64,000 bases of DNA from NCBI GenBank assembly GCA_021811435.1, contig JAJZOR010000001.1, positions 62,001 to 126,000 on the forward strand, read 5' to 3'. Of this stretch, positions 1-49,273 are shown piece after piece. The first letter of the stretch is position 1. Every line of letters begins with the position of its first letter. Origin of the DNA: Microcaldota archaeon. Lineage in GTDB: Archaea > Micrarchaeota > Micrarchaeia > Micrarchaeales > Micrarchaeaceae. Under the pieces are notes generated by a model. It searched no databases. It saw nothing but the letters and a program-made list of their open reading frames with translations, and was not told the DNA's origin. The translations under genes were made by a program, and so were the position numbers.

Positions 1-235
1 AGCCCCTTATGCTTTGCCTGCCTTTGAAGCCGCTGAAAAGCTCCCGCAGCTCTGTTTCGGTGAACGAATAGTCGTAGCCGCTGACGTCCGGAAGCCTTAT
101 AACTAGGCTTTTGCCCTCCGTTTCGTTTACGGACGCCTTTGCATACACGCTTATGGCGACTGCGACAGCTAGTTTGCCGTAAACTACAGCGTGCTCGCCG
201 AGGAGCTTCACTACACCAGGCGCCCTTACCTCCAT
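1..235 (-). CDS. mvk: Mevalonate kinase, N-terminal part (runs off left edge)
   Basis: The reverse strand from an ATG at 235 opens MEVRAPGVVKLLGEHAVVYG and continues to the window edge. This is the GHMP-kinase N-terminus, with the GEHAVVYG signature of mevalonate kinases. The enzyme phosphorylates mevalonate in the isoprenoid pathway, which archaea need for ether lipids. About 78 residues are visible. The ATP-binding glycine-rich loop lies outside the window, so activity cannot be judged. Family assignment is firm; other GHMP kinases are less likely because of the GEHAVVYG context. Confidence 0.85.
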   Translation of the reverse strand, partial: MEVRAPGVVKLLGEHAVVYGKLAVAVAISVYAKASVNETEGKSLVIRLPDVSGYDYSFTETELRELFSGFKGRQSIRG

Positions 236-318
236 GCTTACCAATTTGCAGTCAAAATATTATTATTTCCTGGCGGAATTCGCCCATCAACGAATCGCAT
301 TGAACGCTGAGCCAGGAT

Positions 319-573
319 TCACCTATATTTAAATTTCAATATAAGCAGCCAGATTGTTATAATGATGAGTATCACGTTGAAGAATATTACGGGGAACGAC
401 GAGATGAAGTATCCGTACGCTATCCAGAAGACCAAGCCCAAAGTCAGGGCAGCGAGCCAGTATACAGAAAGATCCCGAGTGGACTTCGTCTTTAGCGCCT
501 TTAGCAATTGTGGCAGGTAAGAAAAGGTAGTCAGTGACCCTGCTATGAGCCCTGATATTATCACGTAATCCAT
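319..573 (-). CDS. SemiSWEET / PQ-loop (MtN3-like) small membrane protein
   Basis: An 84-residue protein with three predicted membrane segments (roughly residues 3-22, 37-57 and 60-80) and a SYLPQL motif in the first helix, which is the PQ-loop signature. SemiSWEETs are half-size sugar transporters that work as dimers. Length and motif fit that family; the substrate cannot be read from sequence. It stands alone between mevalonate kinase (same strand) and an unknown small gene on the opposite strand. Confidence 0.75.
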   Translation of the reverse strand: MDYVIISGLIAGSLTTFSYLPQLLKALKTKSTRDLSVYWLAALTLGLVFWIAYGYFISSFPVIFFNVILIIITIWLLILKFKYR

Positions 574-664
574 TTTGTCACCTGAAAGCCTCCCATCCGG
601 CTGGACCAGACAAACAGCTTAATATTACTTGAGATGCTAATATTTAAGTTTAGGGCGATTCCGG

Positions 665-898
665 ATGGCGAAGGGCGGCAAGGACGTCATAATACAGGTA
701 TTCGGACAGGACTCGCAGCCCAAGAGGGTCCACGAGTGCTACCTCTGCAAGATATACAAGTACGAGATGCGGAAGGGCAATAAGGACGCCTATGGTTGCT
801 ACCTCAAGCACCTGAATTATCTGGTAAAGAGGCAGGGAGGGCTCTCGATAAAAGTCAACTCGATGGACAATGCAGTAGCGCTGCAGGGTGGCTTATAA
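665..898 (+). CDS. Hypothetical small basic protein with a CxxC motif
   Basis: A 77-residue protein that I do not recognise. It has HECYLCKIY (CxxC) near residue 24 and a further Cys at about 45 (YGCYLKH), and many Lys and Tyr residues in the middle third, which could be a small metal- or nucleic-acid-binding unit. A GGCGATT sequence lies just before the ATG, supporting translation, and codon use resembles its neighbours. The stop overlaps the end of the convergent tpiA gene by six bases. Function unknown. Confidence 0.6.
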   Translation: MAKGGKDVIIQVFGQDSQPKRVHECYLCKIYKYEMRKGNKDAYGCYLKHLNYLVKRQGGLSIKVNSMDNAVALQGGL

Positions 899-1681
899 TT
901 TGCCCAGCATCTCGATTATCTTCGCCTTGTTGGTGCTCATGCCGCCTATGAGAACGCCGTCTATGCTGCTTTGGCCAGTGTAGCCCGATACGTTTGAGCA
1001 GTCTACGCTCCCTCCGTAAAGGAACTTGACGCAGCGCGCCGCCGGGGCGCCGAACTCTGAGAACAACAGCTTTTTGAGCTTGGCTACTGTCTCGTTGATT
1101 TCTCTTGGATCCGGTATGCGGGATGGGCCATTAGAGCTTATCGCCCATACTGGCTCATAAGCTATAAGTACGTTGCCGGCCTTGGCATTGGTGCCGCGCA
1201 TCGCATCCAAACCGGTAAGCATTTGACGCCTTAGAACGTCCAATGCGAGTCCCGAATCCCTTTCCTTAGAAGTTTCGCCTATGCAGAGGATCGGGTTGAT
1301 ATTCGCATTGATGCACATCCTGAATTTATCCGATATCAATTGGTCGGTCTCTGCAATGCCGAGCGATTTGCCGGACCTCACCTCTGAATGGCCCAGTATG
1401 GCGTTTTTGCACCCTATTTCTTTCATTGCTTCCAGCGACAGAGCCCCGGTAAACGGGCCGTTCGCCTCGACGTTTACATTTTGGGCGCACAGCTCGACCT
1501 GCGTGCCCTCGAGCTGCCTCCCGACCTGATAAAGCGCCGCATGGGACGGCGCTACTATGACGCGCTGCTTCAATTCTGCTTTCCCTGCGTATTCGGATAG
1601 CGCCCTGGCGAGCGAGATTGACTCGGCTATGCCGAGATACGCCTTCCAATTGCACGCCACTACTATTTTGTCCCGCTGCAA
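893..1681 (-). CDS. tpiA: Triosephosphate isomerase
   Basis: Interconverts dihydroxyacetone phosphate and glyceraldehyde 3-phosphate. The catalytic Lys is in ACNWK (residue 13), the catalytic His in LGHSEVR (about 98), the catalytic Glu in AYEPVWAIS (about 176), and the phosphate-binding YGGSV is near the C-terminus. At 262 residues it is longer than most archaeal TIMs (about 220-230) and closer to the bacterial/eukaryotic length, which may indicate transfer or an ancestral long form. The start is TTG, eight bases beyond the folE stop, with a TGAT-containing site two bases upstream. It is probably co-transcribed with folE. Confidence 0.93.
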   Translation of the reverse strand: MQRDKIVVACNWKAYLGIAESISLARALSEYAGKAELKQRVIVAPSHAALYQVGRQLEGTQVELCAQNVNVEANGPFTGALSLEAMKEIGCKNAILGHSEVRSGKSLGIAETDQLISDKFRMCINANINPILCIGETSKERDSGLALDVLRRQMLTGLDAMRGTNAKAGNVLIAYEPVWAISSNGPSRIPDPREINETVAKLKKLLFSEFGAPAARCVKFLYGGSVDCSNVSGYTGQSSIDGVLIGGMSTNKAKIIEMLGKL

Positions 1682-1688
1682 GGCATCA

Positions 1689-2264
1689 TTATTGTTGGTT
1701 TAGTATTATTTTCAGCGCTTCGTCCTTAGTGTTGGGGTTGGTCTCGAATAATCCCCGTATGGCGCTGGTTACAGTCTCGACGCCGTGTGATTTGGCGCCG
1801 CGCATCTCCATGCACATGTGCCTGGCCTTTATCATTACAAGGACGCCCTTCGCCTCAAGCTTATCATTGAAGTAGTCTGCGATGTCTTTGGTGAATTCCT
1901 CCTGCACCTGCGGCCTGGACGCGAAATGCTTGACTATGCGCGGTATTTTTGACAGGCCGACTATCTTCTTGTCCGGTATGTAAGCTACGGATACGTATCC
2001 GAACATAGGGAGGAAATGGTGTATGCACATTGAATAGAATGGGATGTTTTTAAGGCAGAGTATGTCGCGGTAGCCGGGATTTTTGAAAAGCGTGATTTTT
2101 GATACGTCGTCGTTCCTGTAAAGGCCGGAGAATATTTCGATGTACATCCTGGCTATTCTGCGCGGAGTATTCTTGTAGGCCTCTGTATTTTTGCTTATTT
2201 CTAGGGCGTCAAGCAGTTCGTGGATCGCCCGCTCTATTTTTTGTTCTCTTTGTTCCTCCTCCAT
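1689..2264 (-). CDS. folE: GTP cyclohydrolase I (FolE type)
   Basis: Converts GTP to 7,8-dihydroneopterin triphosphate, the first step of folate/pterin synthesis. Zinc ligands are visible in MCIHHFLP (Cys and His) and in HMCMEMRGAKSHG (Cys); the latter also forms the active-site loop. The usual CEHH reads CIHH here. The ATG at 2264 is preceded by GGTGCTGGGC, so I prefer it to the upstream GTG. Most archaea use the unrelated MptA (type IV) enzyme, so the type I form is notable. It is followed by tpiA and preceded by a DHFR-superfamily reductase, suggesting a small pterin unit. Confidence 0.93.
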   Translation of the reverse strand: MEEEQREQKIERAIHELLDALEISKNTEAYKNTPRRIARMYIEIFSGLYRNDDVSKITLFKNPGYRDILCLKNIPFYSMCIHHFLPMFGYVSVAYIPDKKIVGLSKIPRIVKHFASRPQVQEEFTKDIADYFNDKLEAKGVLVMIKARHMCMEMRGAKSHGVETVTSAIRGLFETNPNTKDEALKIILNQQ

Positions 2265-2297
2265 GCCCAGCACCACTTGATATTAAGCATTTGGAAG

Positions 2298-2828
2298 CTA
2301 TTTTAAGCTTTTGGACCTGCGCCTGATAACCTTGTAATGCAATTGCACCTCGTCCTTTGATAAACGCTTCACATCGAGCAGTTTTAGCCTGGCTTCAAAG
2401 TCGACACCGTCAAAAAGTTTTATGCCATTTGTGAATATCGTTGGCTCTATGGTAAGGTATATCTCGTCCACCAGATCCGCTTTCATGAAGCTTGAGTTTA
2501 TCTTCCCGCCACCGACTAGCACTGTACTTGCATTTGCCATCTTAAATAGGTCGATCGCTTTTATAGGCGACCTGTCCGTGAATATTACGTTTCCCCATTT
2601 GCTCTTAATCCTGCTTGTTGTCATTACTACATTCAGTCCCTTGTATGGGAAATTTCCGTGCCTTAGGGTTTCCCTGTAAGTCCCACTGCCGACAAGATTC
2701 GCCTTCGCCGCGCTCATTTTGCGCATGAAATCCCGGCTGGCTTTCTTGGAGATGAAACTCGTGTCACCTTTTTTGCCCCTCGCTATCATTCCGTTAGGGG
2801 TTATTATCATGTGTATTATTACTTTCAT
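2298..2828 (-). CDS. RibD C-terminal / DHFR-superfamily reductase
   Basis: A 176-residue protein with the RibD-C (DHFR-like) fold: an N-terminal strand MKVIIHMIITPNGMIA, a central NLVGSGTYRE, LVGGGKINSSFM (the NADPH-binding glycine motif) and a C-terminal DEIYLTIEPTIF. Members reduce pteridine or diaminopyrimidine substrates with NADPH. It lies directly upstream of folE on the same strand, so it may supply dihydrofolate reductase activity. Riboflavin-pathway reductase is the main alternative. The ATG at 2828 is the first possible start. Confidence 0.75.
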   Translation of the reverse strand: MKVIIHMIITPNGMIARGKKGDTSFISKKASRDFMRKMSAAKANLVGSGTYRETLRHGNFPYKGLNVVMTTSRIKSKWGNVIFTDRSPIKAIDLFKMANASTVLVGGGKINSSFMKADLVDEIYLTIEPTIFTNGIKLFDGVDFEARLKLLDVKRLSKDEVQLHYKVIRRRSKSLK

Positions 2829-2953
2829 GCTATGATGTTGGTAAAACCCGTATAAATATCTTGATAAATCGAATTATAGGTAGACTATCAGGTGCAGAGT
2901 GCATAAAAACGCGGATTGGGCTTGATAGCTAGGGCCTAATTGCAAGGTCGGCT

Positions 2954-4138
2954 GTGCTGGACATGGATATAATAATAACGCTGATGGTGCTGCTCTCCTC
3001 CGCCTTGATATTGGGCAGCATAGCAGATAAGTTCGGGATACCGAAAGTGGTGGCGTATATAATCGCCGGGATGCTACTGGGGCATATCGCTTCGGGTTTA
3101 TTGAGCTACGGGAGCGAGCTGTCGGGAATCTCCGAAGTGTCTCTCTTCTTCATAATGTTGATGGTCGGCATAGAAGCCACGACGGAACTGCTTACAAAGC
3201 ACATTAGGAGCGCGGTCATGTTCACCATATCAAGCTTCATCATCCCAGTAGCTATCATGATAGCCGTTTCCGTTTTTGCTTTCGGGTTGGACCCTACGCA
3301 GGCGCTAGTAACTTCCATGGCCATAGGTGTGCCATCCATATCAATCATATCTGTACTGGTGATGCGATACGACCTTCTGAGGATTGATGACGGCGCGAGG
3401 ATGGTTTCCAGCGTTGTGCTTACTGATGTGATAGCGTTCGCCGCGCTGGCCGCGATAGGCGCTTCTACGGTGCCCGTTTATGTGGTGGTGCTTTCAATCC
3501 TGGCGTTCGTGCTGGCGCTGCTCTTTTTCGACGGGGTACTAAGACACAATGCGGCTTCTATTAGGAGGTTGTTCATCAAGGAGTATAATGAGAGGCACGG
3601 GGAGGAGCTAATCTTCGCCGGAGTCATATTGATCGGCTTAGTTGGCGCTGCGCTCCTGCAGCTGGCCGGCATAACATACGTGCTTGGTGCGTTCTTCGCC
3701 GGCCTCCTTATACACGACGCAGTGGTGGGCAAGAGGGTGTACGGAATCCTGCAAAGGACCTTCAGGAGAATCACCAACAGCTTTTTCATACCGGTGTTTT
3801 TCAGCATAGCAGGCCTTCAGGTGGCCATGCCGTCTGATTACCTTGAGCTAATGATAGTGCTTGTAGCGATAAGCGGCGCGGTTGGAGGGGCGCTCGACTA
3901 TATTGTTGGACTGAATCGCCTGAAGGAGCTCGGACCTATGACCGCAGTCGCCCTGCTCGGAAGCAGGGGCGCGGTAGGCATCATAATAGCCGACATAGCG
4001 CTGCTTGGGGGCGTTATAAGCATCAATTTATACTCGATAATAATACTCGGCACTGTAGTGCTTTCTCTAATCCTGCCTGTCATGCTTGGAGGCGAAGGCA
4101 GGCTCGCTGATGCGCAGCATGAGAAGAACAAAAATTGA
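2954..4138 (+). CDS. Kef/CPA2-type cation:proton antiporter
   Basis: About 394 residues with 10-12 hydrophobic segments, typical of the Na+/H+ exchanger domain. It opens LGSIADKFGIPKVVAYIIAG, which matches CPA2 antiporters (LGxPxVxGYIIAGxxLG). It should exchange Na+ or K+ for protons across the cytoplasmic membrane. No TrkA-N or USP regulatory domain follows; the chain ends with a short charged tail. The start may be GTG 2954 or ATG 2963. It is convergent with a second antiporter at 4220-5557. Confidence 0.82.
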   Translation: MLDMDIIITLMVLLSSALILGSIADKFGIPKVVAYIIAGMLLGHIASGLLSYGSELSGISEVSLFFIMLMVGIEATTELLTKHIRSAVMFTISSFIIPVAIMIAVSVFAFGLDPTQALVTSMAIGVPSISIISVLVMRYDLLRIDDGARMVSSVVLTDVIAFAALAAIGASTVPVYVVVLSILAFVLALLFFDGVLRHNAASIRRLFIKEYNERHGEELIFAGVILIGLVGAALLQLAGITYVLGAFFAGLLIHDAVVGKRVYGILQRTFRRITNSFFIPVFFSIAGLQVAMPSDYLELMIVLVAISGAVGGALDYIVGLNRLKELGPMTAVALLGSRGAVGIIIADIALLGGVISINLYSIIILGTVVLSLILPVMLGGEGRLADAQHEKNKN

Positions 4139-47551: not shown

Positions 47552-48685
47552 ATGAAAGTTATCATGGCACAGTCCAATCTGACGCTTAAGGGCGGGGCTG
47601 AGCGCGTGGTGCTGAAGATAGCGCAGCATTACAAAGCCAGAATCTATACTGCCGAATACAACAAGGAAACCACATTCAGCGAGTTCTCGGACATGGACGT
47701 GCAGGTGGTCGGGAGGGGCAGGATGCAGCGCCTCATGCCGTATGGGAGGGTGGCGCAGGGGCTGAGCTACGGGCTGGGATTCTACGGCTTGAAGCTTGAC
47801 GACGATTATGACGTGATAAACGCCCACATAGCGCCTAGCCACTGGATAAGGAACAGGAATGAGCGTGTGCTCTGGTACTGCCACACGCCCTTGAGGGACG
47901 TGTACGACCTGTACAAGTACAGGCTGAGAATGAAAAAAATCTACCAGAAGCCCGTGTACGTACTTGGAGCGGCTGCCGTGCGCAGCATAGACGGCAGGAT
48001 CGCCAAAAGGCTGGAGATGATAGTTGCCAACAGCGAAAACGTGCGGTCCAGGATAGCTAAATACCTCGGCAGGGACGACGCCAAGGTGCTGGGCGGGGGT
48101 GTCGAATACGAGAGATATGACGATAAGGGCGATGGCAAGTACTTCCTTTACCCTTCTAGGATGTCGCCAAACAAGAGACAGGACTATGCTATAAGGGCCT
48201 TCGAGCTTTTCAAGAGGAGGCTCAAGGGCTACAAGCTAGTGCTCATTGGACCCGTCTCGAAGGACGGGTTCTACTACGACTTTTACAGGAAGGTGCTGGA
48301 GATGTCGAAGCGCGTCGGGGACGTGGACATTGTAGAGGATGTCAGCGAAGGCGCGCTCAGGGACTACTATGCCAGGGCGACTGCAGTGCTCTACACGCCC
48401 ATTGACGAAGATTACGGACTGGTGCCGTTGGAGGCCATGGCCAGCTACAAGCCGATAATATCAGTGAACGAGGGCGGGCCCAGGACCACTGTACACGATG
48501 GCGAGACCGGCTTCCTTGTAAACAGCGAGGACGAGATGGCGAACAGGATGGCAGAAGTGGCGGAAAACCCGGCGCTGGCCGAACGAATAGGCAAGACGGG
48601 GAGGCGCTACGTCGAAAAGGAGTACTCGTGGGATAGGTTCTTCAGAGAATTCGACAGGTACCTGACCAGTGTATCGAGGATGTGA
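47552..48685 (+). CDS. Glycosyltransferase family 4
   Basis: 377 residues, GT-B fold. The N-terminal half has LTLKGGAERVVLKIA; the C-terminal half has YPSRMSPNKRQDYAIRAF, VEDVSEGALRDYYARATAVLYTPIDEDYGLVPLEAMA (the EX7E motif, key residues EDYGL-P-EAMA) and VSVNEGGPRTTV-like ISVNEGGPRTTV. It probably acts in glycan synthesis. It is convergent with the tbp gene with no gap. Confidence 0.9.
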   Translation: MKVIMAQSNLTLKGGAERVVLKIAQHYKARIYTAEYNKETTFSEFSDMDVQVVGRGRMQRLMPYGRVAQGLSYGLGFYGLKLDDDYDVINAHIAPSHWIRNRNERVLWYCHTPLRDVYDLYKYRLRMKKIYQKPVYVLGAAAVRSIDGRIAKRLEMIVANSENVRSRIAKYLGRDDAKVLGGGVEYERYDDKGDGKYFLYPSRMSPNKRQDYAIRAFELFKRRLKGYKLVLIGPVSKDGFYYDFYRKVLEMSKRVGDVDIVEDVSEGALRDYYARATAVLYTPIDEDYGLVPLEAMASYKPIISVNEGGPRTTVHDGETGFLVNSEDEMANRMAEVAENPALAERIGKTGRRYVEKEYSWDRFFREFDRYLTSVSRM

Positions 48686-49066
48686 CTACTTCGCTTCAGG
48701 CGGCTTCTTTGATTCCGGCGGCTTCTTTACTTCGCCGGGCTTCACCGCAGGCATTACCTCGATGACATACTTGGATATTATCTTGGACGCGTATTCAAGC
48801 ACCTTCTTTATGTTGGACTCGGTATTTGCGCCGGTGCATATCATCTTGCCGTTCTTGAAGAGTATTATGACGGCCTTCGGCTCTGCTATCTTGAATATGG
48901 CGCCGGGGAACTGCTCTGGCTCGTAATCCACGGCCTTAACGTCCCTTGACAGGGAGTAGAGGTCTATCACTGCATGCAGGTCAGCGCTGACGACGATATT
49001 CTGTATCTTTATCGTGGGCTTTATTATATCGTTGTTTGGACGCGCTGGAGGATTCTTTGCTGGCGT
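48686..49066 (-). CDS. tbp: Single-repeat TATA-binding protein with apparent ACG start
   Basis: 126 residues. After a polar N-terminus comes one TBP repeat: IKIQNIVVSADLHAVIDL, VDYEPEQFPGAIFKI and KAVIILFKNGKMICTGA, with both DNA-inserting Phe positions (QFPG and ILFKNGK). A second repeat is absent: after about residue 100 only a Pro/Lys tail follows and the stop abuts the next gene. Standard TBP is about 180 residues with two repeats. No ATG/GTG/TTG gives the whole repeat; GGTGATT, two bases and ACG (49066) fit a start, and TAA precedes it in frame. It would have to dimerise to make a saddle. Confidence 0.88.
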   Translation of the reverse strand, partial: TPAKNPPARPNNDIIKPTIKIQNIVVSADLHAVIDLYSLSRDVKAVDYEPEQFPGAIFKIAEPKAVIILFKNGKMICTGANTESNIKKVLEYASKIISKYVIEVMPAVKPGEVKKPPESKKPPEAK

Positions 49067-49273
49067 TTAATCACCTTTATAGTTAAGGATGAAAAGGTTT
49101 AAATATATGGAACAGCAAATCGCCGAGGCTCGGACCTTTTCCTGGCCGTGCGACGAGCCAAAACATTAATCGCTGGTATGGTCTGCCATTGGCTGGCTCT
49201 GGCGCAGTTTGTCGTCTCGCAACATTATTATATTGGTTGGGTTTATATTTCCTGAAAGAGGGCCGGTGCGACA

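Follow-up and report, generated by a model that had tools for sequence, protein, structure and literature searches.

A single-repeat TATA-binding protein gene in a Micrarchaeota genome and its half-length relatives across the phylum

In the known TATA-binding proteins (TBPs), two repeats are joined via their first strands into one saddle, and the two-fold pseudo-symmetry of this saddle has long been read as the fossil of an ancestral homodimer. The 64,000-nucleotide stretch of Micrarchaeota DNA analysed here (the window) contains a gene for a TBP with one repeat, raising the questions of whether this is an intact gene or the remnant of a two-repeat one, whether it is the only TBP gene of its genome, and whether the one-repeat state is ancient or derived. 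In what follows, f1 is the family to which the window belongs and f2 its sister family, both within Micrarchaeota, and half-TBPs of the two families are divided into types A and B.

The one-repeat gene and its probable ACG start

The window gene is a real one-repeat TBP gene of type B, with the following parts and surroundings:

48686..49066, minus strand: type-B TBP gene with a single repeat, 126 codons plus stop, from a probable ACG start (49066-49064) to TAG (48688-48686)
48767..49012, minus strand: single TBP repeat, PF00352 positions 2-85, from the profile match (C17:110767-111012 on the contig)
48998..49000, minus strand: Asn23 codon (IQNIV), central minor-groove Asn position, invariant in alignments of relatives
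48908..48910, minus strand: Phe53 codon (EQFPG), first intercalating Phe position, from the translation and alignment to solved archaeal TBPs
48857..48859, minus strand: Phe70 codon (IILFKNGK), second intercalating Phe position, from the same sources
48689..48757, minus strand: Pro/Lys-rich C-terminal tail, from the translation; it differs among relatives
47552..48685, plus strand: convergent glycosyltransferase gene, from the ORF listing, outside the TBP system
49067..49069, minus strand: in-frame TAA immediately 5' of the ACG, from the sequence
49070..49075, minus strand: Shine-Dalgarno sequence GGTGAT, 7 nt from GG to ACG, a spacing conserved in relatives
49098..49107, minus strand: candidate TATA box TATATTTAAA (minus-strand letters), from the sequence, with a putative function

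The initial annotation had described one complete repeat with EPEQFPG and both Phe positions, followed by a Pro/Lys tail and by no second repeat, the stop abutting a convergent glycosyltransferase gene, and this description holds throughout. The PF00352 profile matches the product over positions 2-85 of 85 (E=3.2e-25, 88 bits, with a cut-off of 22.9), and the stops of the TBP gene and of the glycosyltransferase ORF directly adjoin. Comparison with solved structures retrieved archaeal and eukaryotic TBPs, the archaeal ones down to E=4.9e-39; the repeat aligns to both repeats of these proteins and retains EPEQFPG, both Phe residues and the Asn of IQNIV, whose position corresponds to that of the central Asn at the minor groove in TBP structures. 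An AlphaFold model of the monomer was poor (mean pLDDT of 56.5) and recovered the middle strands and the last helix alone. The differences from the two nearest relatives at codon positions 1, 2 and 3 number 1/0/41 and 1/0/35, respectively, and this near-confinement to third positions indicates strong purifying selection on the core of the gene.

No ATG, GTG or TTG precedes the first strand of the window gene, the start region of which reads GGTGAT TAA ACG, and an upstream start is excluded by the in-frame TAA directly before the ACG. A standard start is mostly absent from the f1 type-B genes in general: the in-frame codon located 7 or 8 nt from GGTG is ACG in 29 genes and ATG in 5, and no other threonine codon was seen at this position among these genes; in five, a stop lies just before the ACG, and 16 contain no ATG, GTG or TTG between the ACG and the first strand. 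The arrangement GGTGAT, 7-8 nt, ACG GCx AAx is common to the window gene and loci L033, L058, L059, L061, L062, L066, L073 and others; the ACG start pattern was also sought in type A genes and in f2 type-B genes, and is absent there. The conserved ACG is likely the start codon of the type-B TBP, in which case low type-B expression would be expected. A one-base deletion in the start region of the window gene was considered and dropped, given that the GGTGAT...ACG pattern is conserved in relatives. TTTAAA elements resembling the candidate TATA box are also found upstream in L033, L035 and L037.

A second repeat dropped through misassembly, or a pseudogene, could be suspected from the state of the assembly (92.7% complete, in 25 contigs) and from the lack of a standard start codon in frame. 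However, the same architecture recurs in tens of other, independent assemblies, some of them one-contig genomes, the bias of differences towards third codon positions is that of a functional gene, and the ACG and Shine-Dalgarno sequence are conserved, which makes an artefact extremely improbable. The assembly error that the initial annotation had named as a possible refutation is ruled out by the one-contig genomes and the codon bias.

Half-TBPs in Micrarchaeota and the missing type A gene

The window comes from a metagenome-assembled genome of Candidatus Micrarchaeota (G000; 1.095 Mb). A profile search of its contigs yielded the window gene as the sole PF00352 match, with neither a second TBP repeat nor a full-length TBP anywhere in the assembly. 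The initial annotation had raised the possibility of a lone half-TBP serving as the only TBP of the species and proposed to check related genomes for the same short gene. The gene is indeed present there, and in company: exactly two one-repeat matches, lying at distant loci, were detected in 48 of the 55 f1 genomes that are at least 80% complete. Every one of the 19 f1 genomes of at least 93% completeness, G000 aside, has two half-TBP genes, and the one-contig genomes G004, G058, G070 and G075 each carry two one-repeat loci that are far apart. The two types are about 50% identical within one genome and differ in their signatures, KPTYxVxNIVASADL..LDLYGLA in type A and KIKIQNIVVSADLHA.IDLYALS in type B.

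Type A adjoins the gene for ribosomal protein eL21, as in the congener G051. Next to TBP-A in G051 (L032:1-4400) there are also genes for thiolase, enoyl-CoA hydratase and 3-hydroxyacyl-CoA dehydrogenase, which one would not expect in a DPANN genome of small size. In G000, the left flank of the TBP-A/eL21 locus breaks off 178 bases short of the C1 contig end and the right flank starts at C22:3866, the intervening C22:1-3865 holding a tyrosine recombinase. The gene for eL21, a normally essential protein, was not found in G000 either. The joint absence of TBP-A and eL21 indicates that both genes most likely fall in an assembly gap between C1 and C22, and the single PF00352 match is most likely in part an assembly effect. 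The window gene is therefore probably not the only TBP of its genome, and we reject a lone half-TBP in this species. Where the TBP-A/eL21 locus should continue, C22 (L196, positions 1-3900) encodes the tyrosine recombinase together with a RelE/ParE-like small protein, and this region is probably an integrated element.

The TFB of G000 is of the ordinary type, combining a Zn ribbon with a pair of cyclin repeats. Its gene is present as two contig-end pieces, with C2 ending in the Zn-ribbon part and an end of C9 carrying the cyclin part; a split of TFB into separate genes is ruled out, the same peptide at the C2/C9 junction identifying a contig break.

Most loci related to the window gene carry the annotation Candidatus Micrarchaeota (DPANN), and some are labelled Marsarchaeota or bacterium. 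Some f2 genomes encode both A and B, and many encode A only, such as the one-contig genome G190. In G190, as well as in G185, G186 and G205, a single-repeat gene is the sole TBP match. The same holds for families f17-f20 and f22-f26, with one single-repeat gene each, and f15 has one to three such genes (up to three in L218, L219 and L174 of G161 and L139 and L220 of G165; in G165, two of them are about 1 kb apart). Families f3-f13 encode a two-repeat TBP in a single ORF of approximately 190-260 aa, except for G091, which has a single-repeat TBP inside a two-repeat family. The type A singles and the fused Micrarchaeota TBPs occupy the same eL21 locus, an arrangement found in 0 of 46 cases elsewhere, and owing to this shared locus they can be considered positional orthologs.

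In a control set of 346 genomes of other archaea with a completeness of 93% or more, at least two repeat matches were found in 341, none in four and one in G317, with both matches seen to share an ORF in the listed cases. The exception, from family f61, encodes a lone 90-aa half-TBP near eL21 and rpo4-like genes (L357); the half-TBP state may extend to a lineage neighbouring Micrarchaeota. A search of viral contigs with a two-repeat TBP query retrieved no relative. Strongly diverged additional half-TBP-like matches (E about 1e-10 to 1e-11) were observed in L234 (G053:C3:8789-9031) and L217 (G167:C12:19300-19539), and a two-repeat TBP in an f1 assembly (L002, G067:C43), which falls outside the Micrarchaeota clade, is probably on a contaminant contig.

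The probable loss of B from many f2 genomes that retain A, and the probable ACG start that may limit the level of B, would fit a TBP-derived regulator, with A:A alone acting as the TBP and B serving a subset of promoters or sequestering A. Yet both genes are retained throughout the near-complete f1 genomes, B keeps its DNA-facing and TFB-facing residues, and it is under strong purifying selection; overall, a regulatory role for B is possible but appears rather doubtful.

History of the repeats

The accepted view is that one duplication event gave rise to the N and C repeats of TBP, which fall into two clades (PMC4910066). We constructed trees of individual repeats on 86 columns. In a FastTree phylogeny of 242 repeats, of which 156 are from Micrarchaeota (116 single, 20 N and 20 C), three clades were recovered, one uniting all Micrarchaeota repeats (SH support 0.991) and two that hold the N and the C repeats, respectively, of the remaining archaea; an IQ-TREE analysis of 78 repeats yielded the Micrarchaeota clade with UFBoot 100. 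Enforcing classical N/C orthology was rejected (AU p=0.0065-0.009), as was placing the singles with the C repeats (AU p about 0.002). For the origin of the half from the N or the C repeat, both placements are equal.

Under gene fission, A and B would be the old N and C repeats, respectively, of an ordinary TBP. Three columns are diagnostic of N versus C repeats; there, B has C-like residues (Q, V, E), and A has N-like residues at two of the three (E, A). Nevertheless, A and B both fall inside the Micrarchaeota clade, the fission topology is rejected (deltaL 38, AU p=0.025), and A by itself suffices in G190, so that fission is quite unlikely. The duplication that produced A and B is older than the f1/f2 split in the FastTree phylogeny.

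The fused Micrarchaeota TBPs have unusually similar halves, with repeat-to-repeat identity of 50-79% (mean 68, n=20) compared to 43-62% (mean 50, n=46) for two-repeat TBPs elsewhere, and in f9 and f12 the closest relative of each repeat is the other repeat of the same protein (UFBoot 100 and 99, respectively). The single-repeat lineages f21-f26, f20 and f1+f2 are basal in the phylum in the RpoB' tree, the support of which is weak at some deep nodes (33-84), and parsimony requires three changes with a single-repeat root and five with a double one. The f2 genome G187 (L235/L175, contig C39) contains a half-TBP duplicated in tandem and in frame, with a perfect repeat of 98 bases and a linker of its own; it is apparently a re-duplication caught early in a single-repeat family, or possibly an assembly effect at this contig end.

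As Micrarchaeota nest among two-repeat archaea, the one-repeat state looks derived, rather than a survival of the proposed TBP ancestor to which the initial annotation likened it. As for the direction of evolution, we infer that the ancestor of Micrarchaeota would have lost one TBP repeat, with the protein functioning as a dimer since then, that A and B would already have been present in the ancestor of the order to which the window belongs, and that several lineages would have regained a two-repeat TBP via fresh tandem duplication. Taken broadly, as the window gene being paralog B, half-TBPs pairing into a saddle, and an ancestral loss of a repeat being followed by later re-duplications, this reading is probably correct. 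In its full form, with the ancestor of the phylum swapping a two-repeat TBP for a half-TBP dimer, tandem duplication re-creating the two-repeat form, and the f1 pair being paralogs one of which begins with ACG, it has a slightly better than even chance.

The single Micrarchaeota clade and the high identity between repeats within a protein would also be accounted for if the ancestral two-repeat TBP had been homogenized by gene conversion, with about five independent losses of a repeat and no re-duplication. Five losses are enough on the RpoB' tree, and the G091 single within a two-repeat family is compatible with such a loss. Concerted evolution of this kind, however, is the costlier course under parsimony (five losses in the phylum against three changes from a single-repeat root), and it is at odds with the uniformly single state of the basal lineages f20-f26 and with the fresh in-frame duplication in G187; we regard it as an alternative of fairly low probability.

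Possible mode of action and comparison with other TBP-like proteins

A single repeat exposes the edge of its first strand, which makes pairing the simplest way for it to function. Half-TBPs are predicted to pair edge to edge, producing the ten-stranded saddle that is otherwise made from one two-repeat chain. In other Micrarchaeota, for example G190, no TBP besides a one-repeat protein was detected, so that two identical chains would most naturally build the saddle, and in A-only genomes the complex, if dimeric, would be A:A; the homodimer proposed in the initial annotation is plausible. In the family of the window, A:B is probable, or else A:A and B:B could form, an A:B heterodimer being as possible as a homodimer there. 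The C-like residues of B and the partly N-like residues of A at the diagnostic columns hint at an A:B heterodimer that would restore asymmetry; on the other side, the sufficiency of A in some f2 genomes implies that B may not pair with A.

In two-repeat TBPs, the stirrup docks TFB. The motif YEPEQFPG is present in 116/116 singles, 44/44 C repeats and 14/42 N repeats, and the second-Phe motif in 112/116 singles. A half-TBP dimer would be expected to bind the TATA box and to use its YEPEQFPG stirrup for recruiting the ordinary TFB. A symmetric dimer would offer two TFB docking sites, so that promoter polarity would depend on BRE and TFB. Promoter palindromicity was compared across A-only, A+B and fused-TBP genomes, for which motif finding was too noisy.

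Half-TBPs show homology over the whole repeat to two-repeat TBPs such as those of P. woesei (1PCZ/1AIS), S. acidocaldarius (1MP9) and M. jannaschii (2Z8U), with the central Asn, both Phe positions and EPEQFPG kept and the usual TFB in the genome. They differ in having one repeat per chain, so that the saddle would be intermolecular, and in belonging phylogenetically to neither the N nor the C repeats but to a Micrarchaeota clade of their own. Brindefalk et al. 2013 (cited in PMC8131849) reportedly described a TBP-like single domain in bacterial RNase HIII; both proteins would thus contain a single domain of the TBP fold, but that of RNase HIII is said to lie within a nuclease, whereas the half-TBP is free-standing and carries TBP-specific motifs. 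Judging from these alignments and trees, the half-TBP is a clear TBP homolog with a new architecture, spread through the phylum. To our knowledge, no living single-repeat TBP has been described previously, and no mention of one-repeat TBPs was found in the literature searched, the coverage of which left out most subscription papers and preprints. DPANN archaea are known to have TBP (PMC8407392, PMC8204110), and a prototype gene of TBP has been discussed by Adachi et al. 2016 (PMC4910066). The ancestor postulated there, preceding the duplication, shares with the half-TBP one repeat and putative homodimerization, but the phylogeny points to a secondary reduction among otherwise two-repeat archaea, which would make the half-TBP a functional analog rather than a survivor.

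Most families of one archaeal phylum use half-TBPs, and some Micrarchaeota are kept in co-culture, so that the ability of a homodimer to run transcription can be put to a direct test. Also open to test are promoter polarity with a symmetric TBP and the transition from a homodimer to a fused pseudo-dimer; if the proposed history is true, the re-evolution of a two-repeat TBP would repeat in nature how TBP once originated.

The best NCBIfam matches of the window protein are all TATA-box-binding protein models (PRK00394, E down to 2.7e-24), but at no more than 85.6 bits, against cut-offs of 181-347, it scores below the curated threshold. These cut-offs assume two repeats, so annotation with such models would miss half-TBP genes and leave them without the TBP name, which may explain why these proteins have been neglected.
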